Position numbers and translations under genes: made by a program
The notes under the pieces: generated by a model
The model's input: only the letters and a program-made list of their open reading frames with translations
Databases searched by the model: none
Told to the model about the DNA's origin: nothing
Shown: piece by piece, positions 3,367 through 58,918 of the stretch
Layout of the letters: each line of letters starts with the position of its first letter
Numbering within the stretch: the first letter of the stretch is position 1
Source: Hysterium pulicare CBS 123377
Taxonomy: Eukaryota; Ascomycota; Dothideomycetes; Hysteriales; Hysteriaceae
Reading direction: 5' to 3'
Assembly (NCBI GenBank): GCA_000467715.1
Contig: AJFK01000443.1
Coordinates: 1 to 64,000 of the forward strand
DNA: 64,000 nucleotides

Positions 3367-5594
3367 AATGAAGGTATGGTTGGTGGATTTGAAATCGAAC
3401 CTTCAAGGAGAGGGACGAGTTGCTTCTGAAACGAAGGTTGCGTGGCCTACAAAATTAGTGGTGCACATCAAGAGCAATGTTGTATTTAAGGTTGCTTGTA
3501 TGTGTTAGAGGTAGGAAGGTAATTCACTCGATCGAGAGCTAGGCATGCAACTCTTACCTCTACCCGCACCTACAAGCACCTACCCACGCAACGACCCCCA
3601 CCGGATGTAAGCTTGACCCAAGCTTAAGTCATGTATAGGTACACGCAGACAGCACCGCCCATGTTTGTGTTGGCATGTCAAAGCTTTCCGCTTTATCCTG
3701 GTTCACCTTGTCCGCCTTTGGTTACATTATATCCCAATGCCCTTGTAACCTTTCTCTTCTCTGCTCTACGTAGGCCGGCTCCAAACTCTGCATTTCGGAT
3801 AGAAGCGGTATGAAAGAATCAATGAAGGTAACAAAACGATACGATGTTAAAATTATAAAAGCACAGCCCTAGCTAAGTTTCTGCTATCACAGTAATCAAG
3901 TAAACGTGCGTAGATAGACAGAGGGTTACCCGGTCCGGAGTAGAGGCTTAGCGCTACTGCACCTAGAAGCTCGGACTCCGCAGGGCTATGTAATTCTCCG
4001 CCAGCACCTACCACTACTCCGTAGGAATCGCAGTAATAAGGGTTTCTAATTTCTGAAACTTTACTACAATCGGTAATTTCCTCGCTTTGCTAACCCGGAA
4101 ACGGATTATGGGCTATACTTAGCTATCAGATCGTCGCTGAGTTTAGCTTATCACGTGATATTTCCCAGGGATACTCCCCAGGTAGGTAATAGGTGTTTGT
4201 ACTCAATGTTCTTGATGTTAGGCAGATTTTACTGAATTATGGAAAACGAACTTCAAAATCAAAGTGACAAGCGTTACTCCTACGGACTCCATGGAGCTAC
4301 CTATTCGTATGCGACATGGTAGAACAAAAAGAGGACTTCGTTGTGGCTGCTTATCTGCTTTTGCGGCGGCGAAGTGAACAAACTTTTGGGGAGGATGGGA
4401 ACGAATTCAGAATATGTAGTCCGGAAATTTATTGCCAAGTATTACAAGTTCTTGTAGCCAAGATCTTGGGACATCCTCCACTTTGGGTTCAGATCCGGCA
4501 GCCTCTCTACCTCTTCGACCCCAACAAGATTTTTTGGCAGGCCTCCTAAGTACTAGTGTATTGCAAGAATTGTGGTTTGCGTACGAGTTTTTAGAGCTGC
4601 ATCTGATTTGCTGAGTGTTCAGCAGGAAGTTCGTCCTCACCGGACTCGCCCTACGTGAATTAAAACTCCAATATCGGTGGCTAAAGGCCAATTAGTATAC
4701 CGGCCGAACATCTCTCTGCCAGTCTTGTCTATAGCTAGTCTATCAGATTTGAGTACGCCATCGGAAACGCCGTACGGAAAGTATTGAAAGGAATAGCCAA
4801 GGTTGACCACGAGATGCGAGAAGCAAGAATGCCGAAGACGGACCCAATGGATTGGAACCTTTGGGAAGGCTGAATGTCTCGCAGTTTTCCCCACGGTGGA
4901 ATTCTTAATATGGAAGAAGTCAAGAACGTCCAGAAGCAACGCGTGATAGCCAAGATCTTCCATATGGAGTAAGTGTTGCGTTGAAGGCTCTGGGGTCCCT
5001 CAGTTGTGCAGAGGTCGAAAAGGATCTATGGTACGATTTTCAGCATCATGGTATAAACGAAGATCCGGCTCAATCTGGTGGCATGGCTGAGATAGCCGGC
5101 AAGCGATGTTGCATTACCACGTGGGAGGTCTCTGGCTTGTCGGCGAGGTCGATGCGGGAAACCCACCAACAGCAATGGAATTCACAAACAAGGACCAGAA
5201 AACCGCCTCAGTATCAGGCTCCGTTGAGCAGAGGAAGATGTGTCTGGGAAAGTTGCCGGTTGTTGCGCTGGAAAGATTGTTGCAGGGGGCCAATCGGGGA
5301 GAGACGCGCGGCGCAGTAAGCATGCAGACATTGGAACCCACACAGAGAGACGAAACGTCCGTACCTGCATATGAGGAAAATTTTTGTTGGTCGGGAAGAT
5401 CTTCACATACGTGTGCAATGAGCTTGAGAGGGCGTCGAATCATTGGCTCATTTCATTGAATTTGCTTGTTGGATAGCGGCTGTCTTTCGCCATTCAGGAT
5501 TTTGAAGTGCCCATACATCGCAATTACCGCTGCGCTGGGCTGCGGCACCAAATCGATATTGCGACCTGCCCAGTTATGGGCAGTCTTACGGGTC
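3367..5594. other. 2.2 kb gene-poor interval, possibly with decayed coding fragments
   Basis: The left part (3367-3600) is the promoter side of the carboxylesterase. I find no intact gene. Short open frames of 90-117 codons at 4.6-5.4 kb on both strands show mildly protein-like stretches (for example around 5106-5459 +), but none matches a family I recognise. Adjacent frames read better in turn, which would fit an old pseudogene. A palindromic TATCACGTGATA lies near 4150. Confidence 0.35.
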
Positions 5595-10552: not shown

Positions 10553-10698
10553 GCCTTCTGGGCCTTGAAGAAGAGTTTGATTAAGCTCAACCACGCGTAA
10601 GCGGCGATTATAATTAAAGCTCTCATTTATGGTTGTTGATTTCATTCAATGATGTAACGATGTTGCTTTGATTTTGCGTTGAGTTGCCTTCTGGGCCT
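10553..10698 (-). mobile_element. SINE-like retroposon copy A in the HET gene
   Basis: A 120-bp insert (10566-10685) is flanked by 13-bp direct repeats GCCTTCTGGGCCT at 10553-10565 and 10686-10698. Removing insert plus one repeat (133 bp) restores register between the two HET reading frames. The insert shares its sequence with copies B, C and D in this window. Oriented with the shared terminus (TTAATCAAACTCTT) as the 3' end, this copy lies on the - strand and is one of the two longest. Target-site duplications of 13-14 bp with nested 5' truncation are typical of insertion by LINE-type target-primed reverse transcription. No internal Pol III box is convincing, so it could be a SINE or the 3' tail of a LINE. 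Confidence 0.75.
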
Positions 10699-11340
10699 CT
10701 CGAACGATACCCGGGTGTTTTGGGAGGCAAATAACCTCGAGAATTTCAAAGACAAGTTCTTGGAGACCCTAGATCTTCCACAAGATACTCTAGAAGATCT
10801 TCAACGACGCACTATGAAGATCGAAGTCGATTACACACGCTCTTTCTACGATATCTGGACTGATGTGGTGAAATTTATGTTTTTTCGACCAATACTTACC
10901 ACCGGACGCTATATCGACTCGGTTCCAGAGGAAGGACGAAAGAGTATAGTAAGAGCTGCTGGTATTGTACAAGAAGCGTTGAGCCAGCAAGTAGAGAAGG
11001 AGGCGAGCCATTTTGATATCATCAGGGAAAGTCTGATCTTATGTTTCTTCCGATTTCCTCTCCAAAGTCCAACGATACTGACAGCCACCAGGCCATCCCC
11101 CGAGATCCAAGCATCATGGCTGAGGGCTCCTTGTGCAGCAAAATCATCCAGCTAGGGCCGTCCTACTCCGAGCTCGTCGCTTCATTCCGCGCCCACCAGA
11201 AATGGCTTTCCTGCGGGGAAACACACTACTATGTTCCGGGAGACCTTGAGCTTCTACGTGAAAAGAACGAAAGATACACATCTAGTATTCTCGCCTTTAA
11301 CAACGACGATCTCTCCCGGATTCAGGATATGCGAAGTCCA

Positions 11341-11423
11341 GAGACTGTAGCCTGAGCTTTAAATATCATCACCGCTTACGCGTGGTTGAGCTTAATCAAA
11401 CTCTTTTTCGAGACCGTAGCCTG
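11341..11423 (+). mobile_element. SINE-like retroposon copy B, shortest copy, in the HET gene
   Basis: A 55-bp insert (11355-11409) lies between GAGACTGTAGCCTG (11341-11354) and GAGACCGTAGCCTG (11410-11423), a 14-bp target-site duplication with one C/T difference. It carries the shared 3' part (CACCGCTTACGCGTGGTTGAG then CTTAATCAAACTCTTTTTC) and lacks the 5' half present in copies A and C. The inserted total of 69 bp is a multiple of three but introduces a stop. It is the second independent insertion into the same HET gene. Confidence 0.75.
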
Positions 11424-12558: not shown

Positions 12559-13652
12559 ATGGCCAACCCCGACGAAGCCCCTGTAGCTCCAGAGACAGCA
12601 TCTAGATAGTCCACCTAGAAGAAGAGTTTGATTAAGCTCAACTACGCGCAAGTGGCAATCATATTTAAAGCTCTCATTCATGGTTGATCTCATTCAATAA
12701 TGTAACGATGTTGCCTTGATTTTGCTTTGAGTTCTCATTGGATAGTCCACCCAGTTTCAAAACATGAAGGAGTTGACGCCGGGGAGGTCAAATAGATCGT
12801 TAGGAAAGTCGAGCAAGAAAGGATTTAGCAAGTTCTTACCACTTTCCGTTAATCCAGTGCACCATAACAATAAGCTTAAGCTGAAAGTAGCCGAATCAAA
12901 ACAACTTCTAGCGAAATTACAAACATGGGAGACTTTAGCTCTCAGAAATATACCCTATCTAGCTAAGGTCCAATAGCCAAGCTAAGTTTTCTATATAGTA
13001 GAAGTGCTTGACTAAAATGCTTGTAGGATATTTTAGAGTTAACAGAAGCCTCCTCCAGACTCCAACCAAAACGCAGACAAGGAGCAGATGCAAAGGCCGA
13101 AGAACAGACGCTGATAAGAGAGGTGCACGAGGCCAAGACCGTTGTGGATGTGGCAAGATCATGCACAGTTGCGGCTGCGGAGAAACTCAACAAGGCAGAG
13201 TGGGGGCATGCGTACGGACGACTTCATAAAATGCTATCACTCTCTTCTAGTTCGAGTAGTCAGATATTAAAACAATATCGGCCCATGATGTCCGAAGGCC
13301 CAACATCTCGGTGCCTACACTCCGCCTTCACTATTACCCTGGAGCAGACACTCTTGGAGGCGTTGAATATCTACTCGCGAGGGATAACGTTACGTCGATT
13401 AACGCCATGGATTGTCTGTCAACGCACCCAATTAGGTTGTATATACAGGCTAACAAGTTTGACGGGGCGGATAACGGGCGAGACCAACTAGCTGCTTCCG
13501 CGAATGCTGTGTGGATGCGCTTTGATGCACTGGTCGACAACCGTGACGATATAATTGAGTTTCCGTTCGACGAACTCAGGGAAACTGTTGTCGACGAAGA
13601 TGTCGCAGACGAATTCGCCGGTTGCTTGTTCGTCGTCTTCGAGGGTGGATAG
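12559..13652 (+). pseudogene. Decayed gene of unknown family
   Basis: Protein-like sequence starts MANPDEAPVAPETASR at 12559, is interrupted by retroposon copy C, and resumes in the same frame with KELTPGRSNRSLGKSSKKG and KLKLKVAESKQLLAKLQTWE. Further coding-like segments follow in changing frames: EVHEAKTVVDVARSC near 13125-13215 (helical, alanine-rich) and VEYLLARDNVTSIN near 13350-13650, ending in FEGG and a stop at 13650-13652. Several frame changes and stops separate the pieces. I recognise no family. The acidic, globular-looking C-terminal part reads much better on the + strand than the serine-rich frame opposite it, which is why I place the gene on +. It could be a remnant of a larger signalling or incompatibility-type gene, but that is only a guess from the neighbouring HET gene. 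Confidence 0.45.
12605..12754 (-). mobile_element. SINE-like retroposon copy C, longest copy
   Basis: A 122-bp insert (12619-12740) is flanked by GATAGTCCACCTAG (12605-12618) and GATAGTCCACCCAG (12741-12754), a 14-bp duplication with one C/T difference. The body aligns with copy A over its whole length, with substitutions but almost no indels, and extends a few bases further at the 5' end (CAATGAGAACTCAAAGC on the element strand). Its 3' end is CTCTTCTT. It interrupts a decayed gene of unknown family. Confidence 0.75.
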
Positions 13653-14949: not shown

Positions 14950-17900
14950 CAGTGCTATAGAAGAACCATGAAAAGTGACTTAGGAAATCACTTTATAGTT
15001 CCACCAACTTCCGACATGGACTGCATTTCTTGCTGCTTAGGCAGTAACGATGACTCTGGGGCAGATAACAAATGCTCAGCCAATGGACTTGGGAAGAAAT
15101 ATATCCAAACCACTCGGCCCAATGTTTCAAATGATTCCAAATAACGACCAAGGCTCCAGCAACTCCACATCGGGTCTTCGTATATGCAGCTTCAGTATGG
15201 CAACCAGATACCGATGAGAGTCATTAATATGGCCGAAGCTTGCGTTTAGAAACAATCATGCAAATATTAGAATCCCATTAGATGGTGAAAAGGGGCGGTC
15301 CAACACCCCAGCGACTCCCATAATGTCTGGTCCGAACCGCTTTGTGGCAGTCAGTAGATAATTATGCCCCATCTTCGTAGTAGGGGAAACCTTTAAGGGA
15401 GTCTGCATTCGTTCAACAACATGAAGAATCTGGTTGATCTCGTATGAATATGTCAGGGCTCTGGTCCAACTGACTTCATCGACGTAGTTGTTTGGTACGT
15501 GGGAGAGTTTGAGCTAGACCACTTCGGCTGCATTTGGCAAGCGCTAGCTTGTACCGTTATTTTAAAGCCATAGGGCATGAGCCTCCTCTGTAATTTCTTG
15601 TGATGCAATCAGGGTCATCGGGCGCTTGATGGTACCAAGTTGAGAGTCCCAGATCGGCCATATTGAGCAGTAGCATGCCGATATCAATTCATCGAAAGCA
15701 TGTGAGCGGAGAGCATGAGTTCGGTGCAAAGAGTTTTTTTGAAGACGAGCAAGGGCGCAACGGAGCATGAGAAGGAATGCCGGCGTCGTGATGGAATCTA
15801 CTCTTATTCAGAGCTGCTATATACCCATTTGAGAGCCTTAGATTGACCATAATCGACAGTAAAAGACCGGTTGTAAGAACTGACAAGTGTATAAATCGCC
15901 CATATCTGTTAGATTTGTTGTTTGAAGAAAGAACCATAGAGCGCCCATAGGGGATGATGTAGATGATGTTGGCTGATGTAACAGTGTCCAGAAACCTGAC
16001 AAATCCACACAAAATCGGAAATATATGCATTTTGGAAACTCAGAAATCATTGAGTGGAAGACAAAAGCAGGGACCATATGGTTGGGGCATTTTGCGCTCT
16101 TGAAGTGGAGACACTGGGCGCTCATCGCGGGAGCGCCGTATTGTTTGTAGGTTCTAGAAGGGTTAAATCTCCAACAGACCGGCATGCATCATCAATCGTA
16201 TTCTTTCTGGACCGGAAAAACCACAGAAGAAGCCCGGATCGAGGGACATAGTACTGAGCCTTGGCTATATAGAAGAACGGCCAGCACGACATTCGTGAGT
16301 AGTATCGGGCGTTTCAGGGATGTAGTATAGTTCAAAAGTCCGAGAGCACCACACGACTTCGAGCTGGAGATTATGTTGCCTTTTAGCGTACGGAAGACGG
16401 ATGTTAAGCATGCAAATACGACCGTCGACGGCCATTCTTGAAATAAAATGATCATGTAGAAGAAGAACCACAAGACACACATTCGGTGAATTGTTCCATG
16501 AGTATGGACATCATATCATCCAGCCCCATAAAATTGATCAAGCATATTGTGCATACAGTCCGGTGTTTGAAGGTAGGGGGAGAGACTCAAGAAAGGAAGC
16601 CATGTATCGAATATCTCCGAATCTTCAAAAAGGAGCGAACAAGATGCCCATGGAAAGCTTCAATACAATCGATGTTGTTGATATACTCTAAACCTTGCCA
16701 ATTCACATTGAAATATTCCTTGCAAAGGGTCTGCTACTCGCAGGACTGCGAAAGAGACGCAATAGCGGAGAACATGATGCAGTTTGGAGGTTCTAGTTTG
16801 AGCAAAGTCCCACCCCACACATACTATGCTTCCAGACTTTCCGCTATCTTGATATCATTTAAAGCTTCTCCGGCTGAACATCGTTTCGTTCTCCAATGAT
16901 ATTATGGAACTCAGACGATGTGTAAAGAGGCACAAGGACAGTAGCCATGAATAGTTACTGCCGATAAGAATGAAGAAGAGCAACAGGGTGACAGGATACG
17001 CATGACAAATTTGGTCTGAACTTGATGGTCTTAGTAACGGTTAAGAATCCAGAAAAGTTCATAGGCTAGTTCAAGCCTACGCTTTCCGACACTGAGACGC
17101 GGGCGGAAGAGACACAACAGCTGAGGCCATCCATGGGCCAGCACCCGTCAATTCGGCTCATGACGGACTTCGCTTGGACTCGATGGAATTAGTATCATTG
17201 AGAAACTCTGAGATCTCCATGTACAAAACGCTAGGTAGCTTCCCCAACCATGAATGAGAGCTTTAAATATAATCACCGCTTACGCGTGATTGATTGACCT
17301 TAATCAAACTCTTTTTCTAGGTAGCTTCCGGCACTGAGACGCAGCGAAATAGACGCAAGAACGGCGGCCATGACCTTTCCGTCATTCACGATTTAAAGAA
17401 GAGCCACGGAGTCCTCATAGGTCTCCATTTTGTTCCAGGAATAATACCCCAGGGGCCCCAATAGCTCCACATGCGTAAGCTCAATGGTAGATATGAACTT
17501 ATAGGGTGTCCGAATCATACTGGAGCGGAGACCATCGACCAAAGTATTTCCCATAGTTGAAGAGAGCTATAGGATGCTTATACCGAAAGTCCTTAAGTTC
17601 TGAGGTTGTTGATGTCATCCAAGCCTCTAAAGCACCATACCTCAGCTAGATCACTAGCTTTTGGCGTCAGAATTCCGCTGAGTGAGTGGCAAAGGCTACG
17701 GTTATGAGGCTTCTCCAGAATTGGGGTTGAAAAAGAGCCACAATCCATTTATAGGCTTTTTAACTACGTTTGTTGGCAACGTTGATACTATAGGAGTCTC
17801 CAAGAAGTCCACATTTGGAGCCAAGCGTAGTTGAGTTGACAATTTGAAGCCGGCGAAAGGGGCGCAAGGAAGACGGCCATTGCCCAACTATAGTAGCATG

Positions 17901-20450
17901 GAATAGTATTGTTCAAATATTACCACCCCACATGAATGCATCAGCAAAGAGTTTTTGGCGTTTTGGTGCCGGTAGAAGAGAGGCAAAAACAGCGGGAGAC
18001 CATAAAAACGGCACTGCTGGTTGCTTCGATGAATAATTGCAGCTGACTCATCGCATGCAGTACTGTAACATGGTTGATATCGTTCATAGTACGAAAAGCA
18101 CCACATCTTCAGGAACTCAGTGGCTTGTGAAATAGACAATCTCAGCAGCCATCACTCATTCAGACGATTGGATGTTGGAAGAAGAGTTACGAATACCCGC
18201 ATCAGAGCAGTAGGAGGATGATATAGAAAAATTTCGTCCATATCCCACCAAATCCATAAACATCCTTTCAGATCCAGTTTTTGCAGTATGATGCTGGCAA
18301 AGGAGAGCCAAGCCCGACACCAATGTCCATTTCATAAGTTGGTGTTTAAAGAGGAGCCACAAGGAACCCATGCCGTTACTCCAAGTACTGAGATGGAATC
18401 GATATTGTTCATAGTGCTGAGAGCACCGCATCATTGGCAAATTCAGGGGATTTTAGCTTCCGGAAGTCGGCGAGAGAGAGACAAGCGCGACGACCATCAG
18501 CCATTTTTTCGAGCTGATTTTAAAGAGATGCCATCGAAAGCTCATGTCGTAGAAATATAAATGTTATATGGCAGAGTATCGTTCAGATCCCAACAACTCC
18601 ACATAAGGACTTTGGCGAAGATTCTTGGCGTTCAAGTCCCGGAAGAAGAGAGGCAAAGACGGGAGCCATCATTTACATCATCACCCTTGGTTTTTGAAGC
18701 GCTACAAACACTTCAATGCATACCTTCAACCATTCACAGCTTGATATCTCCAGAGTCGGATAGCACAACATTCTTCAGAGTTTCGAGGGATTTTAGCACT
18801 CCGAAGCCGATACAAGAACAGAAGCCATGAGTCGAGATTGTAAAGAGCCGGAAAGGAGTTGCACCGCACTCACTTAGGGGTTTAGAGAGAGAAGTTAAGG
18901 GAGTAACTTCAATTTTCAGCCATTCCACATCAGCCCTTGAAGGCGTCCTTTTGGCACTGCCATGCCGGTGGAAGAGAGGAACAGGCCGCGGCATTTAACT
19001 GTTTTGCGATGGTATTTTGAAAAGATCCAGAAGACTGATACCATTACTCCAAGTGCTGAGGTGGGGTTGATGTTGTTCAACCCCACAAAAGGTCCACATT
19101 GAAGGAAAGCTCTCCTCTGGATAGGTACTTGGAACTGGGCGCAGGGACGGCGACCATCATCTCCACTGTTAATATGGGTTTCAATAGAGCTATATAGGGC
19201 TCATAGTTACCTTTAGCAGAGCGTACGTTCGCAATATTATCGATCAAACTCCCACAGGATCCGCATAGTTAACGAATGAAGAATAGATGTAGCTCCAGGG
19301 TGCCGACGGAAGAGAGAGCAAGAAGAACGGCCACCATTTGCTTTGTTTGGATGTTGTTGGCAAAAGGCCACGGAGCATAGATTCTTTCTCTCGCAAAGCT
19401 TTTGTGAAGGAGTAAAGAGTCTGAAGACGGCAGCCATTTGCCTTTTCCTGTAGAGTCATTGAAAAGAGCCATATAGTGTCTTTATGGTTGCTCTTAATAA
19501 GCCGCATACATGAAATAGTATCCAGACCTCCAAAGATCTACATGATAGCAAAGGGTATACATATCTGGCACTCGGGTGCCGATGGAAGAGAACTCAAGAA
19601 AACGGCCATCTTGAGGAAGTGAAAAGCGAGTTAAAGAAGAGCCACGGACTCGCGGAGCATTTTTCCGTACACTGGAGCGAAAATGGTGTAAGGAGATATC
19701 GTTCGGTTCCACATGGGTAGCGACAAAGTCGTATTTCTGGAATCCTCGGGCTAAGGGGGACGGATAGGAGAGCGGAGGTCATCGACCACTTGTCAAAGGT
19801 AGGCCGGAAGCAGAACACCAAAGAAGTCATAAGATGGTTTCAAGGTCTGACTGACTTCGATCTTTTTCAAGGCCGGGAGGAGCTCACATACCATTCCAGT
19901 TTTCCTCTTGTTTAGGTTCGGAGGGTTGGCGGGTAGTAGACGAGAGAGGCCGAATCTATATCCCAAGAATAAATCTGGGAAAGAGCCACAGGATACTCAT
20001 TACTGCGATAGAGAATGCTGTATGAAGGGGTGTCATTCAAATCCTAACAAACCCACATGAGGACCAGTGAAATCATGATTTGGAATCCTCTTGATTGTTG
20101 GGACGGACCAAATAGCGGAGGTCATCGGATATCCAAGACCATCGATTTGAAGCGGAGGAACGAGAGATCTTTGGGCTTTTGTCATTTTGCTATATGTTGG
20201 ATTCGATACATTTCACACTCCCACCAATTCCACATAATAATCCTTAAAGGTTACTCTTCAAGCTCGGAAGGTTGGCGAAAAGCAGGCGAGGGAGGCCATT
20301 AAACGATTGATGATAAAGCTTTCAGTAGAGACACAGGCCACCGACGTCATGGGTCGAGATGTTGATATCAACTAGTCATCGTTTGAACTCCAACCAGTTT
20401 CAACTTCCACATCCAATGGTGAGGAGCGGAGAGTTTGGTAATTGGCGCCG
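14950..20450. repeat. Diverged three-part tandem repeat, period about 168 bp
   Basis: No gene is visible, but three short motifs recur in fixed order on the + strand: (D) a stretch like ATCGTTCATAGT ending in CCACAT; (B) a stretch like CCGGAAGAAGAGAGGCAAAG ending in GGCCAT or GAGCCAT; (C) a stretch like AAAGAAGAGCCACAGG ending in CTCAT. Positions of the CCACAT/CCGCAT of D include 18253, 18426, 18599, 18925, 19094 and 19261, giving steps of 173, 173, 326 (two units), 169 and 167. C recurs at about 16461, 16625, 16797, 16974 and 17135, then 17391, 17557 and 17729. Units are so diverged that only the motif cores and spacing survive. On the - strand each module begins with ATG and reads like MWCS, MGSLWLFF or MAVFLSSLP, but frames are not maintained over more than a few units. 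Function unknown. Confidence 0.7.
17231..17329 (+). mobile_element. SINE-like retroposon copy D, inside a repeat unit
   Basis: A 73-bp insert (17244-17316) is flanked by perfect 13-bp repeats CTAGGTAGCTTCC at 17231-17243 and 17317-17329. It is intermediate in length between copy B and copies A/C and ends in CTTAATCAAACTCTTTTT. Its insertion splits a B module of the 168-bp repeat, so the array is older than this insertion. The perfect duplication suggests it may be the youngest of the four copies. Confidence 0.78.
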
Positions 20451-23400
20451 AGGATAAGACCACATAAGGGGCAAGCCATGTCCGCGTTTGGAGACGTCGT
20501 TATTGGAGCGCACACTACTGCAAACCAGCATTGAGGTTCTTTCCAGATCTGACAGATCCACACCGGAGCGATAGGCTCATGGTCTTGAAAAGATCTGAAT
20601 GGTCCGCACATAGTACCAGTATTCCAAGTAATCTGGAGAAAGTCACCCAGAATCACTACCCGGGGGAAAGACGGGAAGAACATTTGTTGCTGGTACGCGG
20701 AAAAGTGGACGAGATCTCAGCAGTCCCATGGGATACGAAAAGATGAGTGTTGAATGAAGGGTCCAAAGCTCCAGAGGAGTCCCATGATGCCTACTGGTAT
20801 CGTATCTTGGTAGCAAGAACCCCATAGACATTGTGTAGTAGAGAGTTCGAACATTATGTAGCATTTTAAAGGATCAGTTCTGGACAAGAACGATAAGCGC
20901 TTGCATTGGTGTCATATGACCAGCACCATCAGGCGGCTTGGCTCGGAAGTTGACTCCAGACATCATTCAACTCTTTCCAAAAATCCGAAAGGAAAGGCCC
21001 GCCCACATTACGCCGAGAAGGAAGGTACAATGATGGATACGACTCTCCAGCCCGGGCATGGAGGTAGCTGCTACCATACTTCGAGGCCAAAGAGGCAAAG
21101 GTCGGCCACATAAGAAGGTTATGTGACTACGTAGTGATCCAAAAAGCCTTCACAGGTCCCAGTACCGCCATTAGAGTTATGATAGCGAAAGTGGAGGAGA
21201 ACAAGGCTTGCCACATCAGTATACAGTGAGATAGGTAAGGATCAATGCTCTCAAATATCAACAAGGGGACATGTATGGGGATAGTACCATGAGATTGAGA
21301 AGCGAAGAGCCAACCACGCATATAACAGTGATGAAAATCGTGATGATGAATGCTCTCCGGCCATTCATTATGGCAATGTGGGCAATAAGACCAAGTTGAG
21401 AACGGAAAGGCCAACCACACATAGTGCGGGCTGTTGGTCCGTGATAATCAATGTTCCCATGTCCCACCACCTAGACATCATCCTTGTTCTTCGCGGAGAT
21501 GGAAGTCAAGGAATGGAAGCCGAACCACATGAATTAGTAACTATTAAAGTGCTGATCAATGCCGCAGGCTCGCAAAATCCCACACGAGCCCATGGTTTAG
21601 CTGCCGGCTTGTACTTGAGCAGCCACAGACCAACCACATAGCCATAGATAGTGTCGCGCATCGTAATGATCGATGCTCTCCGGCTCGGACATGAACCATA
21701 GACCATGAGACTGTCGAACGTTGAAGTCGAGGGACAAAAGCCCACCAAATGTAGCTGAGTGTATGTTGCTGATCAATGTTGCAGCTAACCTAGAATCTCA
21801 CCCCGAACATGGAACGTAGCGTTGGATGGATTGAACAGCGAAGACCAACCCCATATCGATGGGGTAGAACCATGCTGATAAATGCCACAGAACCAAACTT
21901 CCCATCCGAAGACATGACGTGTAGGACGGTTGTCGAGTTGAAGAGCGAAGTTTTGATCACATTGCGATCACACCTTCCAGCGGGATAACCAATGGCTCCA
22001 AAAATCCACAGAAAGGCATAAGGAAGTGATAATCACGGGAGTTGATCATAATATCTCCAGGTTTTCTTTTTGTGATTTTCAGCTTTGTTCTCAACAACTA
22101 AATAACCCAATGGTTAATTAGGAGCATTCGCTGGCATCAGCACATCGTTTGTTGAAAACTCCATAGTGAGGATCGATGGTCTTTTCGGACTCTAAGCGTT
22201 TCGAGTAGAGAGACCCGATGCATATGCCGATGGTAGTCGAAACCATGATGTGGATGCTAAAGGTGATTGGTTCGAAGTCACAGTTTTTCACGCAGAGGCA
22301 TGTGGAGGCTTGTTCAAGTCATCGAAGAAAGCCCAGCGACATAATGCCATAAATGGCAATAGGATTGATCAATGTTCTCGAGATTCCACAGGAAGACATG
22401 TAGCTGGTGGACTCTGAAAGTCGAGGAGCGGAAAACGAATCGCACATGTTCGTTGCTCGGAAGTGTATGACTGATCCATATTCCCAAGTTCCCGACATAG
22501 AGACATCGAGTTGAGGAATAAAAGATCAACTACATATGTTAGATGGAAATCAAATGATAACCGAGATTTGAAAGACATCTAGTAGAGCTCCGATGGAAGA
22601 CAAGGAGCGGAAGAACAACCACATGCATCGTAGATGAGATCGCTGATTGATCCGCATCCGAGATTGCGGCACGGAGACATGGCTACAGCGAGTCTTTCAG
22701 ATGACGAGTGAACGACCAACCACGCATTTAGTACTCTAAGACTGACGAGTGACCCCAAGATCTAGCACGGACGCATACGTGAAAAAGCGGAGAGGCATTG
22801 GAGCAAAGACCAACCACACATATGGCTCACCGGATTTGCTATATTGATCAAAGTTCCGACGTTCCGGCAAAGACATGAAAGCCTTCCCAGAACTTGGCCG
22901 AAGAAACATAAGACCATCATTTGAAGGACGCTGGTATCCTAGTTGACGATCAATGTTCCCATGATCGAACATGAAGATATCATTTTGGTTTGGTAAAGGA
23001 AGTAAAGAGAGGAAGTCCAACCACGCATGTGGATGGTTACTGATGCTCAATGTTTCCGGGACCCAACATGCAGGCATTGCTATCACGAAGGAAAGAGGGC
23101 AGGTCCAATCATACATCGAGTATTCAATGCTGGGTTGATGTTGCCAGGATCGATCGAGAGGCCATAAATCCGAGAAACCCAAACAGTTGAAAAGCGGAAG
23201 TCCAACCACACATGGGAATGACGGGTGTGTCGAGTTATGTTCCCAGGTTCCCAAAAGCAGCCATGATCCTAAGTAATTCTGAGTAATTGAAAAGTGGAGG
23301 TGAAAACGCCCATGTCAGAAACGTGGGTTCTGGCGTTATGTTCCGAAGAACCAACAAGCAGCCATGTTGTAGGGGAGGACAGGGTTGAAAACCGAAACGG

Positions 23401-25240
23401 CAACCACATAGAACTGCTCAACAACCTTTGGCGATAATATTCCTAGGACAAGACCCAAAACAGAGCCATTCATCTTTTTGATTGGTCCTCTGAAGAAGCA
23501 AACGACCGGCCACACGTGTCATCTCCAGGGTCCGGTAGTATGATCCTAGAGCCCCGAGCGGAGACATAGTTCCCCACTTGAGTCGAATTCGAAGAGGCAA
23601 AAAGGTCAACCACACATGTAAAGATAGACACTCCGATGAACGATCCCAGAACCGAAAACGGAGACATAGTACTTCTCCACCCAGTAAGATTAAAGAGAGA
23701 AAAGACCAACCACACATGTCCACGTCGAGCAATCCAGTGATGATCCCGGGACGCAGAGCAAAGACATCATGTTCTGGGAACCTGGCCCAATTGAAGAGGC
23801 GGAAGCCCAACACACATACGCCATATCCAAACTCTCGATGAATGTTTCCAGAACCGAGGACTGAGACATCATCGTCCTGTGTACCTGGGATCGGAGAGCC
23901 AAAGTCCTAACCACTCATGTCATAACGGAGCGATCCACAGATGATCCCGGACCCGAGGACGGAAGCATCGCTCTTCTATTTGGGATGGTTTCAAAGAAGC
24001 AAAGCTCCCAACCACACATCCAATGGCTCAATGGCAGGAAGAAAGTCCAAGCATCTAGAACGGAGACATCAGAATCCTCCGAGCCGAAAGATTAAGAGAG
24101 AAAAGGCCAACCACACACTTCAAACCAGGTGAGAGACGGTGGATGTTCTGAGGACCGAGAACGGAGACATCGCTCTTCCCTTGGCAATGGTTTTGAAGGA
24201 GCAAGGGGCTGACCACACATGTCATGACCAAGCGATCCACAGATGATTCCGGACCCGACGACGGAGACATCGCTCTTCCCATGGCAATAGTATTGAAGAA
24301 ACAAATCCCAGCACATAATGTTTTCGATCATGCACGCGTGATCCCAGAACCCGCCACGGAGACATCACGACCCGCGATTCCATCATATGGAAGCGGTAAT
24401 CCAACCACATACATACGCGTTGTCAGCGGTAATGATGAAAGTCCCAAGGGTCTAACAAGGAGACATAAGTCCTGCATGTGGAATGGTTATAGAGTGAAAG
24501 GCCGACAAAATACGTCCCGCAGGAGACATGGATGATCGATTGACCGGCCGGACACGCCGACATGAAGGCGTGAAGGTGCCTATCTTCTTGCGTTGGGGAA
24601 GCGGAAGGCCAAGCAATAAACATATGCAGGGTACGGCGCAGTAATAATGAATAATGGTTCCAGAACCCATGGCTGATGTTACTGCATGGCTATTGAAGCG
24701 GAAGGCCAACCACCAAACACCAAACACATTTTCCAAGGTAGAGTTGTATCGATGATGAATGGTTCCAAGGCCCGACACCGAGACATGTCTGGTGAACACC
24801 GTTTGAGATGGACCGGAAGACCAGCGACCTGCGCTGGCGTTGAACATAACAATCGATCGATGCTCCCAGGCCCGAAAACAGGGACATACCCCACGGCTGT
24901 AAGTTGGTGTTGGCGACTCCAGACTTCCATGGAAGACGAGGAGGGGATTCGAAGAACCCATGGCGCCGTTGCGGTCTTTGTTCCTGATCGACACCAGAGA
25001 AACCGCAGACGCGATCATCCACGGTTCCTTCCACGAAGTTGGCAATGGGGATAAGTCAAGCAACAGGACAAGTCTCGCAACTGCCCCATGCATTGTCAAT
25101 GATAGCCAGTTCATCTCCCAGCAGTTGATCCACTCCATCATCCATGCTCCTATGGGCTTACGATGCCCACACAAGAAAGGAAAAAGTGCACCCGAAGTAC
25201 AGAACAAAGCATCCCCAAAGCAGAGAACGACGGAGTCTAT
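20450..25240. repeat. Diverged two-part tandem repeat, period about 100 bp
   Basis: Continues the left block with shorter units. Two motifs alternate about 50 bp apart on the + strand: X, CCAACCACACATG, and Y, a GATCCCGGACCCGAGGACG-like stretch ending in GGAGACAT. X cores (CACACAT) lie at 23611, 23711, 23811, 23912, 24013, 24112, 24214, 24312 and 24406, steps of 94-102 bp. Y cores lie at 23560, 23660, 23760, 23862, 23961, 24062, 24163, 24263 and 24358, steps of 95-102 bp. Left of 23 kb the spacing is looser (about 97-120 bp). On the - strand X reads MCGW/MWLVF and Y reads MSPFSVLG. Some short runs stay in one frame, giving minus-strand open frames of 172 codons (22736-23254) and 251 codons (24452-25207), but most of the array does not. 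No known gene family is recognised. Confidence 0.75.
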
Positions 25241-25263: not shown

Positions 25264-25680
25264 TCGTTCCTCTGGAGTCGACTTACCTGGCTTTGACACC
25301 ATTTACCCTACAGCAGAGCGGCCGCGTGGATGAGAGCGGTGAGCTTACGGCCGCGGAGTGTGGACTCGTGAGTATGTTATACGATAACTTACCCTGCAGC
25401 AAAGAAGGAGAGGAGAAAGATGTGGTGAGCTTACGGCCGTGGACTTAGGGGAATGAACACATCGTACAAAGACTTACCCGGCGAGAAAGAAAGAGCAGAG
25501 CAGAGCGCTGAGTAGACGCCCTCTACCCTCTACATCACGATCCCATCACACAACGACTTCCCCAGCGAGAAAGATATGAGCGGATAAATGTGCGGTGAGT
25601 ATACGGCCGCAACTCTGCCCTCGTGAGCGAGTGGTGCCGGACTTACTACATGCATGGTGAGCTGGCGTTCAATACGAATC
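25264..25680. repeat. Short direct repeats of about 86 bp at the array edge
   Basis: A different repeat borders the large array. An ACTTACCC(T/G)GC core followed by purine-rich AAAGA recurs near 25270, 25385, 25470 and 25556 (steps of about 115, 85 and 86 bp). GGTGAGCTTACGGCCG recurs near 25340 and 25425, with a variant GGTGAGTATACGGCCG near 25592. About four units are recognisable. The cores look like 5' splice donors (GGTAAGT or GTAAGC on -, GTGAGC on +), but no exon is evident. Confidence 0.6.
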
Positions 25681-26357: not shown

Positions 26358-27554
26358 TTACAGAGAAGAGCCCTTCTGGACCTTAGCGACGACCTTCTCG
26401 ACGGCTGCGAAGAGAGGGTGAGATGTCTCCAAGCCGGTGATCTTTTCCGTGGCCTCCTTGGCACTGTTGTCCTTGAGAATCTTGGCCAACTCAGCACTCT
26501 CCTCGTCGCCTTCTACATTCTGGAACCGAAGAGCCATCTCGACACCTCCAAGCAGAGCATCGTATTTGTCGCCCATCTCGGCAAGGTGGGCCGCGGGGGC
26601 AATGAAACGCTCCTTTCGGGAGAGCTTGCGGAGTGGCGCACGGCCGACACGCTCGACCTTGTCTTCAAGAGCTGGGTTCGAGATACGCTTGATGATCTTC
26701 TCGACGTACTCGTCCTGTTCTTCGGTGGTGATTTCGTGCTTGTTGGTGATGAGGTGGGCGGTCTCCTTGAGGGCGTTGCGAACGATGTCGTGAAGTTCCT
26801 TGGTCTCCATGGTCTCGTGGATGGTCGACTTGCCGGCGTTGTAGCCGTAGTAGGCAGCGGTGGCGTGGGAGGTGTTGACGGTGAAGAGCTTACGCTCGAT
26901 GTAGGGCTGGAGGTCATGGACGAAGTGGACGCCCTTGATCTCGGGCTGCACGGCGCCGTCGAATGGCGGAGACTCGACGCACCACTCGAAGAACTTCTCG
27001 ATTTTGACGTTTAAGCCAGCGTCCGGGTCTTGGTGGGGTACGATACGGTCAATGGCTGAGTTGGCGAAGCGAGCCTTCTTCAGAAGAGCATCGTCTTCAG
27101 CAAGTTTGGGCTCGTTCAGCTTATCCTTGATGTAGCTTGTGATGAAACCCTTCCAGGTAGTTGTGGCGTTGATTGCGTTTTCACAGGCAATGACTGCGAG
27201 AGGGGTTTCGGACTTGCGCGCCTGGATAGCCTTGGCTACTGGCTCGGCGACGAACTTGAGGATGTTTGGGCCCACAGCACAGGTGACGACATCTGCGGTA
27301 GCAATCTCGTCGACTACCTTGGCCATCTCGTACTTGCTGTTGATGGCACGGTAGTGGTCAATGGTGAAGGTTCGCTCTCCATCATCGCCAATTTCCGTGA
27401 CAGTGTATTTTGGGGTCTTCTGCAGAGCCTCGATGATGCTGTCCATGACATCAACGAAGACGACCTCATAGCCGGAGTTGTGAAGGAACTCGGCGACGAA
27501 GCCACGGCCAATGTTGCCGCCTCCAAAGTGTACAGCTTTCTTGTCGAAAGGCAT
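26358..27554 (-). CDS. mpdA: Mannitol-1-phosphate 5-dehydrogenase
   Basis: 398-aa single-exon protein starting [19 protein letters not shown], which carries the NAD-binding glycine-rich loop near residues 11-18. The polyol-specific long-chain dehydrogenase signature appears as [14 protein letters not shown], and [14 protein letters not shown] and [12 protein letters not shown] match the C-terminal catalytic domain, including the active-site helix. The enzyme reduces fructose 6-phosphate to mannitol 1-phosphate with NADH, the first step of mannitol synthesis in ascomycetes, in the cytosol. The open frame continues about 140 codons upstream, but that part is low-complexity (serine, threonine and proline rich) and the family starts at MPFDKKA, so I place the start at 27554 and regard the upstream part as 5' untranslated sequence. 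Length and motifs are complete. Confidence 0.95.
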
Positions 27555-28404
27555 TGTGGTGTTTGTGGGTTGAATATGGGGGAATTGGAGGTTAATTGGA
27601 GGAGTCGAGGAGGGTTTTGAGGGCGAGAAAGAGGATACGTGGGTGTTGTGTGGGCGGAAGTGGCTGTGGGAGGAAGGAGCAGGTGTAGCTGGAGGTTGAA
27701 GAAGTGAGGTCAGCCGGAGGGAAGAAAAAGAGGCTCTAGTCGGAGTTTCCAGACTCACCCTGCTTCGTGCGCAGAATGCGGTGTGATAGGCGATTAGGCT
27801 GCGTGGGAGGGCGTTCGCTTTATCGTTGGTTGGCGCGAGGGTGAATTGGGGGCAGAGTATGTGCTGGTCGAGATACCCCGCAGAGGCGGTGATGATGCAG
27901 GCTGGCAGGTGTGAGCAGCCCAGTTGGGCTAGGGACGCCACACCAAAAGTCGATTGCACTGGCACGACCAGCAAAAGAAATACCTTCAGCTTTCTTTCCG
28001 GAATGGCGCAGGCTGAAAAAGGCTTTTCAATGCTCTTAGGACAAAAGCGATTCAGGTACCCCCACTATCCAATTCATAACGCACATAACCCAAGCTTGAC
28101 ATGGCACATCAGCACAGAGGCATCAGCAATGTTGCATCAGACACGGAATGACAAGCCCAATTCCCTCCGAGTATCGCGTACTTGAATGACCCCGAGCCAC
28201 GATCGGCGTCATGATAGCAACGTTTTTATGGTAGCTCCCGTTAGACCCCGCTCGGGTGGGGCGAACTCATATAGGAGATCTGCATGGAACTTCATGCGAG
28301 ACCGTCAATTGTATCATAAATCTATTACATGCCCATCCCATGTGAAGTAGGTACCCAATACGCTGTTCAGTTTTCCTGCCCATCACTTCCCCAACTCTCC
28401 CTCA
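27555..28404. other. mpdA promoter/5' leader and spacer to PNS1
   Basis: The part next to mpdA (27555-27975) is open in the mpdA frame but looks like pyrimidine-rich leader in transcript sense. The rest is spacer beyond the 3' end of PNS1. A short GC hairpin near 28243-28260 (CCCCGC paired with GTGGGG) is noted without a role. Confidence 0.5.
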
Positions 28405-53300: not shown

Positions 53301-56300
53301 AATATCAGACAAAGTCCGACTGTCTCGGTCATCAGACCCATTTCTTCCTGGAGCTATTCTAAGGATCCCGGCACCGACAACGACCATGTCTGGTTTGAAG
53401 GTGTGGGCGTACTTTACTCTCAATGGAGAATTCCAGTCCATGAAAGTCACCTTGTCATCGCGCTGAGCGAATTCGAATTATGCCGTTGGGCTCGAACTCA
53501 AGGACCAACATGTAGAGCAAGTGCAATTTGTGATGGTGTGGACAACTCCAAGGATATTTTAGCGACGTGATTGAAATTTCTCAAGAGTCGCTCATGTTAA
53601 ATGTCCATGCAATTTCTAGCACATGCACGTCCTTTGTTCCATGCCTTTGATACGAGCGAGATTGTGCGCAAGTTTTGGAGAAAACCGTCCCCAAAGGTTT
53701 TTAGTGCGGAAGTTTGGAAACTACCTAAGCTCTAATATTACGCTGCCTCATCAAATGGTTGGCCAATTGCGCTATGGCAACACCCAAATCAAACCATGGA
53801 TCATTTTCCTTTGGTGAGATAAGGTCCCAGAAAATTGCGAAGGACAACCATGGATTTTAATTCTGTGAACTTTTGAAGCCGGAAGAGGGAGCGCATGCGC
53901 AGAAATTGCATCCATATAATAGACGGGGTCCATCAAGCGGCTGTCGAAAGGGAATTTGGACCCCAACAATATGCTCATTTCGAGTAGACCTTGAGAATCA
54001 AGTGGCAAATGGTCCATATTTCGAGTTAGGAAATTGGTTAGTCCCAGAGGTCGACATGACTTTGGCACAGGTCCATTTTCTAGCTCCATGCCCGGGGCCT
54101 ATGCAAGCTTCGATGCCCTTCCCACAGCAAGAAACATAATACCTCAACCTTCATCGGAATGACCCCAGGAATACTGCCCATGAGCATTATAACTCGCAAC
54201 CGATGGAAGCATAGACACATGACAGTTCTTCGGCTACTTGTGGTGGATGCCGGGAAACAACTCCAAGCATGTATCGTAGAGTTTCCAAAGTTCTACTGTT
54301 TGCACGTTACATATCCATCGGCGTCTCGTAAACGGAGGAACTCCAGACACATAACTAGACAGCGACTGCTGATTATGATGGGAAGACCAAACGACGAGTC
54401 CGGACATCTAGTCCTGACCGAAGGATGTATGATCTAACCATGTATGGCGCCTTGGAACAATTTTGGAGACGAGAAAAGCCCAGACATATGTACGGTTTAG
54501 CAACCGATGTATATGCCAAGCAAGCTGCACGACGATCTCGGACATCAGAGCCTCATTGCAAAAAGTATGATCCAAACATGGGTTGTTTGATAGATGCCAT
54601 TTTGGAGACCTGAGAGGCCCGGAAAAATGACCAGGATCCATGCTGATGTGTGTAATGTGGGATGGGAACAACGAACCCCAAAATCAATACCTGGCTGTAG
54701 GATGTATGTTCCAACCATGAACAGCATCAGTGTTGTAGTTTCCGGCCAGATGGAAAACCCCGACATGTCGTTGACTTGGTCTACCTTTTAAGTAAGCTGA
54801 GCAACGATCCTTTTCTTTTCATTACTCGTATCAGCATTCTCATTCGGGATACCAAAATCGATTGAACTTTCAACGATCAGGAAACATGTGTGTTTTCTCT
54901 TGAATGTATGGTATATACAACCATATTACCATGTAAACGTGCCCTTTGAACACACGAAAGCAGCCAATCCATGGAGGCTGATGTGGACGCTGATATTAGT
55001 CATCAAAAAATATCTTCCACATCTTATTCTAGATAGGATTTATATGGTCCCGCCATACGAGAAACTCCCAACGTGGTTCGGACAAGGGAAAACTCCAGAC
55101 ATGGAAAAGATTCTTGTCGAGTATGATAGAGGAGCCAAGCAACTATTCCGAATATACACGTTCTTAGTGGAGCGGTATGATCCGACCATGACTTAGCCCA
55201 TGGGTTATGTTTGGGCACGAGCGAAGCCAGACATACGGAGGGCTCTCGTGTTGATGTGACAATCGGAGCCAACCAAGGATCCCGACCATGGTAAGCTTTG
55301 GCGGCTGCCTGGTTTATTGTCCAGACATGCAAGTGTTACAAAGACTATTTTGGCCACGAGAAAAGCCCACCCAGGGACATAGGCAAGACATGTATCCGAG
55401 CCATATTCAAGAAAGCGAGCCAGAGCGAGGATCCCGGACATGTAGGCTATGTCTGAGTAAGGTATAATCCGGCCTCAGAATCTCGCACTGACCTCTTTGG
55501 ACACGAGCAAAGCGCAGACATGGTCGGACGATATTCTCGCATATAACCAAGAAGCCGAGCAAACGATCCTAGACATCAGCTTGGGCAATAAAATTAGTAT
55601 GATCCGACCATGGCGAGCTCATGACGAATGATTCGAAATACTGAAAAAGCGCAAAGGCATCTCAAGCTTGCTTCTAGCAATATATACGAGAAGACAAACA
55701 CCCAACTCGACCATGATGTGACGGCCTACGATTGGTATGGCACCATGACGACTTTAGTGAGTTCTGTTATGGACGGGAAAAACCGAGAGACATGATTACT
55801 ATGATGACTCGACGTCTGGTATGATTATAGAGCCGAGAAACGCTCTCGAACATGACGAAGTGTCGTCGTAGATCTGTGGAGATAGATCCCGTGTAGGTGT
55901 TGGGCACGAGAAAAGCGCAGACACATAAGCATGCTTAGGGGTATTGGATGATATGAACCCCAGGAACCGGTAGAGGCATTAGAGAGCTACTATAGACGAA
56001 ATATAGTTTGGCCATGGCAATCCTTCGGAGAGCGTTTGTGGACGGGTGAATGGAGGACGCGGAGCCACTCCATAAAGGTGCCCTCATAATTTTCATAACA
56101 AGGTCTCGAGCAAAACATCATGAAATCCTTGCCATTGATTCTTTCGGGACCATAAACTCACAGTCTATTATCTTTCGACCCCCAGTCTGGTATGCATTGC
56201 TGATTGTCATCTGGTAGGAACACTCCCATGGCTATGTTCGTTAGAGCTTATTGACGTCCAGGACCATTATGCAACGCTTCAAAATCTTCTGGACCTCCGA

Positions 56301-57758: not shown

Positions 57759-58426
57759 TCACGAAGCTCCGCTCTTTCCCTTATCCTTTTCTTCCAATTT
57801 CCTCCTCGCGGCCAATATCATTTCCTCTCGCCGTTGTTGTAAGTTTAGTTGCCGCTTTTCCCGATCTTGTGCCCACCCGCTTTTCTTGTTGACATCTGAC
57901 CCTGATGTCGAAGCGTCGGAGCTAGTATTGAGCTTTGATGATAGGTTGTATCGCGTTATCAGGTCAGGGTGTGACGATTTCGCCGGTGGAGTAGCAGTGC
58001 GGGATGCTGGAGTAGATGTGCGAGGAGTCGGCGGCTGGAAGGAAGGCGGTGGCTAAATCTTACGTTAGTCTCAAGACAACTCATCGAGTTCGTGAAACTG
58101 CGGAGCTCTAAGATCATGATAATCTGTAATGAATTCCACGGAGAACTCACCGCTTCTAGACCTCTTCCACTCAGGACTCTTTCCGTTGTAGCGGTCACAT
58201 TTCCTCCATTCCGTTGCAAATCCCACATGATTTCTCTCCTAGTGAGTTGTGGAAACATCTGCGCAACCTGATCGACCTGCGCCGGATTGACTCTGTAACC
58301 CCGGTTCTGGCCAGGTGGCTGTCGTGTGCCATTACCTGACGGCTTTGAAAAGAACCATCGGAGGACTAGAAAGCTGATGACGACGAATGCGATGATTTGA
58401 GGTATATTCAGTGTTTGTTCCGCCAT
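57759..58426 (-). CDS. Membrane-anchored CUE-domain protein, Cue1-like
   Basis: Two exons, 58426-58151 and 58052-57759, joining to 189 aa. An N-terminal membrane segment (IPQIIAFVVISFLVLRWFF) is followed by a CUE domain at about residues 45-90: NPAQVDQVAQMFPQLTRREI, WDLQRNGGNVTATTERVL. Then come a proline/serine/threonine-rich linker and a basic helical end (DREKRQLNLQQRREEMILAA, RRKLEEKDKGK). This layout matches Cue1, which anchors and activates the E2 Ubc7 at the ER membrane for ER-associated degradation; the C-terminal helix is where the Ubc7-binding region sits in that family, so I infer the same here. CUE domains bind ubiquitin through the MFP motif, which is present. An RBR ubiquitin ligase lies 4 kb away, but nothing links the two. 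Confidence 0.85.
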
Positions 58427-58918
58427 CTTGCGAGTGCCACACCGTATCGTTAGGCCAGGTGGGAAAGTGGGATTCAGGTGCGGACCTCCGGTCGGAGCGA
58501 TGTTCGAGATGATCGGATAAGGGAATCAAGGGGGCCAGGAAGAACGCGGTGGTGGATTGTTTGTAGTGGCTGTTTGTGAGATATTTTCTAAATGAACGCG
58601 AAAGCACTTTTATAGCCTGGCAGGTTGATAGAGCTGCGGGGTGGTGTATGGAGTGAGGTGGAATGCGGTTGAAGATGACATAACTACGGCGGGCTTGGCG
58701 TTTGGCTTCGGAGATTTCCCCCAGGGCAGGGGCTATGCTTCATCAGACATTCACACCTCAAGCGCCTTCAGTCGACCAGCATACGCCCAATTGTGGCCGA
58801 CACCTGTGCAGAGACTCACACACTGAGCTATCCACTCGTTTCTAGCATGCCTTGATATCTCAGCTCCCATGAAATCTTAAAAACCCCCACTCGTCTACGC
58901 GCCTGACGACCCAGCATC
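58427..58918. promoter_or_regulatory. Divergent promoter region of the CUE gene and beta-barrel gene 1
   Basis: A 492-bp spacer between head-to-head genes. No factor site stands out. Confidence 0.5.

Follow-up and report, generated by a model that had tools for sequence, protein, structure and literature searches.

The block at 14.95-25.24 kb of the window is made of very old modules of about 50 bases arranged head to tail. Rather than a gene, it probably represents either a field of binding sites or an old array of satellite type. The reading that we favour, with confidence somewhat short of even, is that this one locus carries a non-coding, satellite-like array, the boxes of which may be kept by sequence-specific recognition of the DNA or of an unfolded transcript. 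The window is the whole stretch of DNA that was analysed, bases 1-64,000 of a 68,457-base contig in a genome of 37.2 Mb and 596 contigs, and its fungal-type genes include those for HET, P450, GH47, mannitol dehydrogenase, choline transporter and CUE-domain proteins, a gene content that points to a filamentous ascomycete. Between about 14.3 and 26.36 kb, only two open reading frames reach 150 amino acids (22,736-23,254 and 24,452-25,207, both on the minus strand). The block would escape ordinary annotation: a six-frame Pfam scan of 14.9-24.9 kb gave zero matches, an Rfam search of 13.0-26.5 kb (E up to 5) matched zero families, and Tandem Repeats Finder reported two short repeats and nothing more in 14.95-25.24 kb. 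The gene-less 10-kb block of short recurring modules that an earlier, sequence-only reading had described is real, with periodicity, ladders and profile matches above their controls. The modules of both halves lie on the plus strand throughout, are about 50-57 bp long and form three-module units (about 172 bp) on the left and two-module units (about 100 bp) on the right; that reading had three motif classes on the left and two on the right, and the profiles give boxes L1, L2 and L3 on the left and boxes A and B on the right. The features of the block and its right neighbour are:

15,000-20,800, plus strand: left array with three boxes (L1, L2, L3), unit about 172 bp, most regular at about 17.8-20.2 kb
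17,231-17,329, minus strand: younger short dispersed element inside the left array, conserved part 17,245-17,321
21,090-24,890, plus strand: right array, unit about 100 bp, boxes A and B about 50 bp apart; matched 33 times by the profile, with 36 intervals marked by hand
23,517-24,270, plus strand: most regular run, 16 consecutive module ends
26,358-27,974, minus strand: mannitol dehydrogenase gene, right neighbour of the block, its 3' end towards the block

The limits of the block are approximate; the regular part stops near 24.89 kb, and the left edge is not sharp.

In the right array, profile refinement yielded the consensus AGgAGcGAAAGgCCAACCACACAT for box A and GATcaATGtTCCCAGGAcCCAaCACGGAGACAT for box B, which end in ...CCAACCACACAT and ...CACGGAGACAT, respectively, and alternate every ~50 bp from 21.1 to 24.9 kb. 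The 6-mer autocorrelation of the right half reaches up to 140 counts at lags of 97-105 bp, with further peaks near 200 and 300 bp, compared with a largest value of 33 in 30 dinucleotide-Markov sequences, in agreement with the spacing of about 100 bp read from the sequence. CAT is the three-letter word of strongest period in this half, at 50.8 bp. Trained on 22 A+B units, a profile found 33 matches in the window (E up to 10), namely the 22 training units, 8 at E 0.04 or better and 3 at E 0.8-6, all on the plus strand and confined to 21,089-24,888; the same profile had zero matches in 64,457 bases from seven other genome stretches. The steps between B boxes from 23,469, a hand-picked start, to 24,466 are 98, 100, 100, 102, 99, 101, 101, 100, 95 and 101 bp, and the ladder of 94-102 bp over nine units that had been noted at 23.5-24.4 kb thus holds. 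Regularity culminates at 23,517-24,270, where the 15 module steps, with ends adjusted to CAT, are 50, 50, 50, 50, 50, 50, 52, 49, 50, 51, 50, 49, 52, 50 and 50 bp (range 49-52); the unadjusted ends give identical values in slightly changed order, one end lying 2 bp further on. A ladder search with random seeds found 14 equal steps in the right half and 8 in the left. Shuffling, applied to the left half only, gave 3 or 4 such steps in each of 12 runs, and one control stretch gave 3.

The left array, with the consensus sequences CCAACAgcTCCACAT (L1), GaAAGAGAcaCAAgaaCGGCGGCCAT (L2) and TTgAAGAAGAGCCACA (L3), is more loosely ordered. The boxes follow the succession L1, L2, L3, L1 in 38 of 60 steps, whereas 14 steps run backward and 8 lead to the same box; 8 of the 20 L2 steps measure 172-175 bp and the remainder 100-526 bp. 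Autocorrelation near 170 bp (36 counts) stays below the control maximum of 45 and is not significant, whereas the double step of 342 bp (65 counts against the same 45) is significant. The left ladder had been described with a step of about 168 bp, and 163-173 bp at 18.2-19.3 kb; the periodicity and the repeated spacing stand, but the step is about 172 bp, exceeding the autocorrelation control at twice its length only, and the L2 steps at 18.2-19.3 kb are 172, 173, 172, 159, 167, 162 and 180 bp.

The statement that the modules all end in CAT was too strong. CAT is placed exactly at the profile end in 23 of 26 B, 17 of 21 L2 and 16 of 23 L1 boxes, with an exact-match background of 0.028, but in only 14 of 30 A boxes, and it occurs within 4 bp of the A profile end in 26/30 (chance 0.26) and a few bases past the end of L3 in 13/17; these frequencies lean towards CAT, because the profile seeds contained it. 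Beyond CAT, the box classes resemble one another weakly (5 of 28 class pairs at p <= 0.05, 1.4 expected). Sequence conservation breaks off abruptly after CAT: over the first 14-16 bases that follow it in the right array, identity is 0.27, compared with 0.25-0.26 in random windows, and base composition is nearly even across the first 16 bases of the linkers.

The differing divergence of boxes and linkers inside units is what needs explaining, more than the spacing. Among the eight units at 23.5-24.3 kb, mean identity amounts to 0.59 for box A and 0.65 for box B, compared with 0.28-0.38 for the linkers. The linkers are clearly related in 3 of the 28 unit pairs of this stretch (0.57, 0.59 and 0.73), which indicates a mixed duplication history. 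An old array with nearly unrelated sequence between cores of kept spacing had been suspected, and the near-chance linkers and boxes about 60% alike at 23.5-24.3 kb bear this out; the old-satellite option is likewise supported as far as an old tandem array is concerned, given nearly fixed spacing and unrelated linkers. Over the whole right array, identity is 0.48 among A boxes (25 positions) and 0.50 among B boxes (30 positions), at positions that were hand-adjusted and picked by box similarity. The box/linker contrast is 0.24 at the real phase and 0.28 at the best phase, whereas three sets of 1000 neutral simulations, in which boxes and linkers decay at equal rates, reached maxima of 0.18, 0.19 and 0.17; they were run with 8 units, without indels, unequal exchange or rate variation, and tuned to an identity of 0.50 (observed 0.53). 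Since simulated equal-rate decay falls short of the observed contrast, boxes and linkers in shared units have diverged differently.

The main rival, a serious possibility if a less probable one, is a functionless old tandem array that expanded once or a few times and then decayed. The contrast would then stem from boxes that were duplicated into unlike linkers or from uneven mutation, with no present selection. The gradient of copy quality fits such a history, the A+B bit scores being highest mid-array and lower towards the left edge, as do an insertion left in place in the left array, the lack of Pfam or Rfam matches, and the fixed spacing that a low indel rate can yield: by estimate, an indel-to-substitution ratio near 0.03, which is within the fungal range, suffices for the 5 of 15 module steps that deviate from 50 bp. 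Constancy of length is hence weaker evidence and, alone, no proof of selection. However, equal-rate decay does not reach the contrast, and most unit pairs with near-chance linkers still retain about 60% box identity.

Box identity is nearly independent of distance: near neighbours are 0.51 (A) and 0.54 (B) identical compared with 0.48 and 0.50 far apart, the correlations with distance are -0.11 and -0.18, and the eight ladder units show no trend by separation. A shared target thus fits better than local homogenisation. The same values bear on the idea that each box serves as a recombination or junction motif and is kept by the exchange process itself, not by a host function. PMC3694981 reports conserved motifs at the monomer junctions of Meloidogyne satellites, which offers a precedent, and the boxes of the block end sharply at the module boundary; yet with neighbours barely more alike than distant copies, and no trend within the ladder, an origin on this nematode-satellite model would be very unlikely.

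The insertion in the left array is a short, dispersed, retroposon-like element. Direct repeats containing AGGTAGCTTCC flank it at 17,233-17,243 and 17,319-17,329 and are read as a putative target-site duplication; two further copies in the window likewise carry direct repeats, 11 bp or longer (by eye). A genome search with 14,950-18,200 gave at least 39 scored matches on other contigs, all to 71-83 bases at about 17,245-17,327, from 200 candidates in a first look, such that the counts are lower bounds. As the element sits within the pre-existing left array, the array is older than the insertion. A derivation of the modules from the dispersed element was considered and rejected, the element profile having no significant module match (best 0.5 bits).

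Of the earlier proposals, selection on a repeated peptide, on an RNA in folded form and on nucleosome-scale phasing found no support. A repeated peptide is rejected: unit lengths cover all values modulo 3, stops occur in all frames, Pfam is empty and 29 of 30 codon tests are null; neither an open frame or Pfam match nor a spacing in multiples of three, the marks of repeat proteins of the ANK, TPR or WD type, was found. For the same reasons, a decayed repeat-protein gene with repeats of 33 or 57 amino acids is the least probable of the readings considered here. It could draw on the one codon test that stands out, L1 in one minus-strand frame (z 2.8 for conservative change, the best of 30), on L2, which from its ATG remains stop-free over ten codons in 20/20, and on the scarcity of minus-strand stop words in the right half (TTA 19 compared with ATT 44 and TAT 35), which may reflect composition. 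Against it, besides unit lengths and the empty six-frame scan, stand the stops met on reading from ATG in A (3/25), B (7/31) and L1 (6/16) and the mismatches of the nine closest ungapped pairs, which are not clearly 3-periodic (10/10/19 in the longest, more even in the others). Exons and introns at a 50-bp pitch were also discarded, with no invariant GT or AG column in the box profiles (by eye), as was RIP, the indices of which match the rest of the window.

A folded RNA is unsupported, with mean fold z values of -0.04 to 0.08 in 60-base windows on both strands, like control sequence, and with the empty Rfam search; z falls below -2 in 1.6-4.9% of the block windows, compared with 2.3-3.7% of the control windows. 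The Xist A-repeat has conserved cores of about 26 nt and variable spacers. By analogy, the block might specify a long non-coding RNA of repeated, unstructured, protein-binding modules, with which short cores, variable spacers and the single direction of all modules would agree. Tandem duplication, however, already gives a single direction, a fold signal is absent on either strand, and the block differs from the A-repeat RNA in having no such signal and far more modules; this reading is unlikely. Nucleosome phasing is unsupported, because the unit is about 100, 172 and 138 bp across three arrays; no clear 10-bp dinucleotide period appeared in a weak test without shuffled control.

The third of these arrays lies in a second block elsewhere in the window:

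54,350-55,930, plus strand: second array with boxes X GAGaAAAGCCCAGACA, Y CAACGATCcCGAACAT and Z GTATGATCCaACCATG, steps mostly 133-140 bp
57,759-58,525, minus strand: CUE-domain gene, its 3' end towards the second block

The opposite flank of this block is a plus-strand HET-domain gene that ends near 49,165; the second array lies inside about 8.6 kb between the converging HET and CUE genes. Its unit is about 138 bp, and its boxes differ from A, B and L1-L3. In 6/10 X, 8/11 Y and 5/5 Z boxes, the profile end has a CAT no more than 4 bp away (chance 0.26), and at a loose cut-off the A profile has 10 matches in the second block on the plus strand and 2 on the minus strand. At the right end of this block are minus-strand open reading frames of 177 and 186 amino acids; Pfam gave no match in the minus frames of the block beyond one at E 0.2.

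Like a satellite, the block at 14.95-25.24 kb consists of head-to-tail tandem copies above chance and is non-coding; abundance in several genomic arrays was not observed, with no second copy of the array at the sensitivity used. DNA searches of its own genome with 18.2-19.3, 21.2-25.9 and 53.0-57.4 kb (19.3-21.2 kb was left out) returned self matches alone, and a plasmid collection had zero matches to 21.2-25.2 kb. Words like box A (up to one mismatch) matched 39 times, 7 times in the block and 32 times scattered outside (reversed pattern, 13). One box-pair pattern had a single genome match, in this block (reversed, 0), and a second had 3 in this block and 4 elsewhere (reversed, 2). One pattern of box words matching the second array had 5 of its 11 matches in the second block (reversed, 1), another 3 of 8 (reversed, 4). 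In a repeat survey of 41 genome stretches (six 10-kb stretches, 34 no longer than 3 kb, and the contig end), a lag exceeded controls in 11; the six of these that were inspected (L003, L018, L023, L032, L045 and L055; L009, L025, L033, L038 and L044 were left out) hold short-period, AT-rich or no repeats. None of six other 10-kb genome stretches, a small sample, has a comparable array.

Several known systems resemble the block in part. (i) Alpha satellite with its CENP-B box, the core of which is TTCGNNNNANNCGGG, is a higher-order-repeat satellite array. Unlike in alpha satellite, CENP-B box matches to the block are at chance level, and a CENP-B box satellite is rejected: with up to one mismatch, the core occurs 11 times in 64 kb (12.4 expected), once in the block. 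As in alpha satellite and in the Meloidogyne satellites of PMC3694981, the block has head-to-tail modules, multi-module units and a short box in diverged monomers. Unlike such higher-order-repeat satellites, it is a single locus of a few kilobases with modules of ~50 bp and no other copy found. (ii) In the pairing centres of C. elegans, zinc-finger proteins bind to arrayed short motifs; these centres share with the block many copies of short motifs that differ between places, a likeness of sequence layout, whereas the block is apparently fungal and has longer boxes in tandem spacing. (iii) CRISPR-type arrays have a repeat-spacer layout, to which the constant part of ~30 bp, the variable part of ~20 bp and the near-fixed pitch of the block are similar; in contrast to them, the constant parts agree at only about 50-65% and come in two or three alternating kinds, and the host is a eukaryote. 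Matches of the linkers to the rest of the window are no longer than those of shuffled linkers (mean longest match 9.8 in both cases; 51 linkers).

A non-coding array with recognised boxes could have arisen in the following manner: The modules presumably grew by tandem duplication long ago. Since then, boxes of 25-35 bp would have been held near their consensus by something recognising the sequence; along the chromosome this may be a DNA-binding protein, or, on an unfolded transcript, an RNA-binding protein. The linkers of ~15-20 bp would drift freely, their length kept mainly through the rarity of small indels and perhaps also helped by a spacing requirement. That the second array has a similar build but its own boxes seems to count for recognition; whole-array box identity of about 0.5, low for strongly selected sites, counts against it, as do the A-like words scattered elsewhere and the weak resemblance of box classes beyond CAT. 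Even less probable than junction motifs kept by exchange is that the module itself is a functional unit, in which a box of 25-35 bp ending in CAT would be joined to a part of ~15-20 bp that is diversified, not merely decayed, each block having its own box family; modules of this kind at near-fixed pitch might be, for example, serial minigenes or the precursor of small guide-like RNAs.

A literature search, mostly at the level of listings, turned up no such element for fungi. If the array is merely old, it is a good case of decay with few indels imitating 'conserved spacing'. If the boxes are under selection, the block would be a functional non-coding element of several kilobases, and slow boxes together with fast linkers at near-constant length provide a testable signature.

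A second array runs in the same direction as the first, that is, the tandem arrays of the gene-less block, and possesses its own boxes.

54350-55930, same direction as first array: second array, boxes X, Y and Z, unit ~138 bp

The block itself is adjoined by a third, short array (window 25338-25643; steps of ~84-86 bp), in which the words GGTGAGCTTACGGCCGCGGA and ACTTACCCGGCGAGAAAGA are repeated, three copies of each; its boxes differ from those of the block.

A very AT-rich stretch closes the contig (C341:68190-68457, positions 4190-4457 of the surveyed contig end, L003). Its composition is as expected of a RIP-mutated repeat, for which it is a candidate, and the 99-bp autocorrelation lag in L003 probably arises from its repeats.

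A short dispersed element occurs in the window in the following copies:

10563-10697, +, dispersed short element
11248-11413, -, dispersed short element
12614-12746, +, dispersed short element
17245-17321, -, dispersed short element

The genome search returned at least 39 scored matches on other contigs. The element is ~73-125 bp long, with one end constant and the opposite end variable, and three window copies are flanked, as judged by eye, by direct repeats of at least 11 bp, containing GGCCCAGAAGG, GGTGGACTATC and AGGTAGCTTCC. It looks like a short non-autonomous retroposon, and we regard it as a candidate for one.
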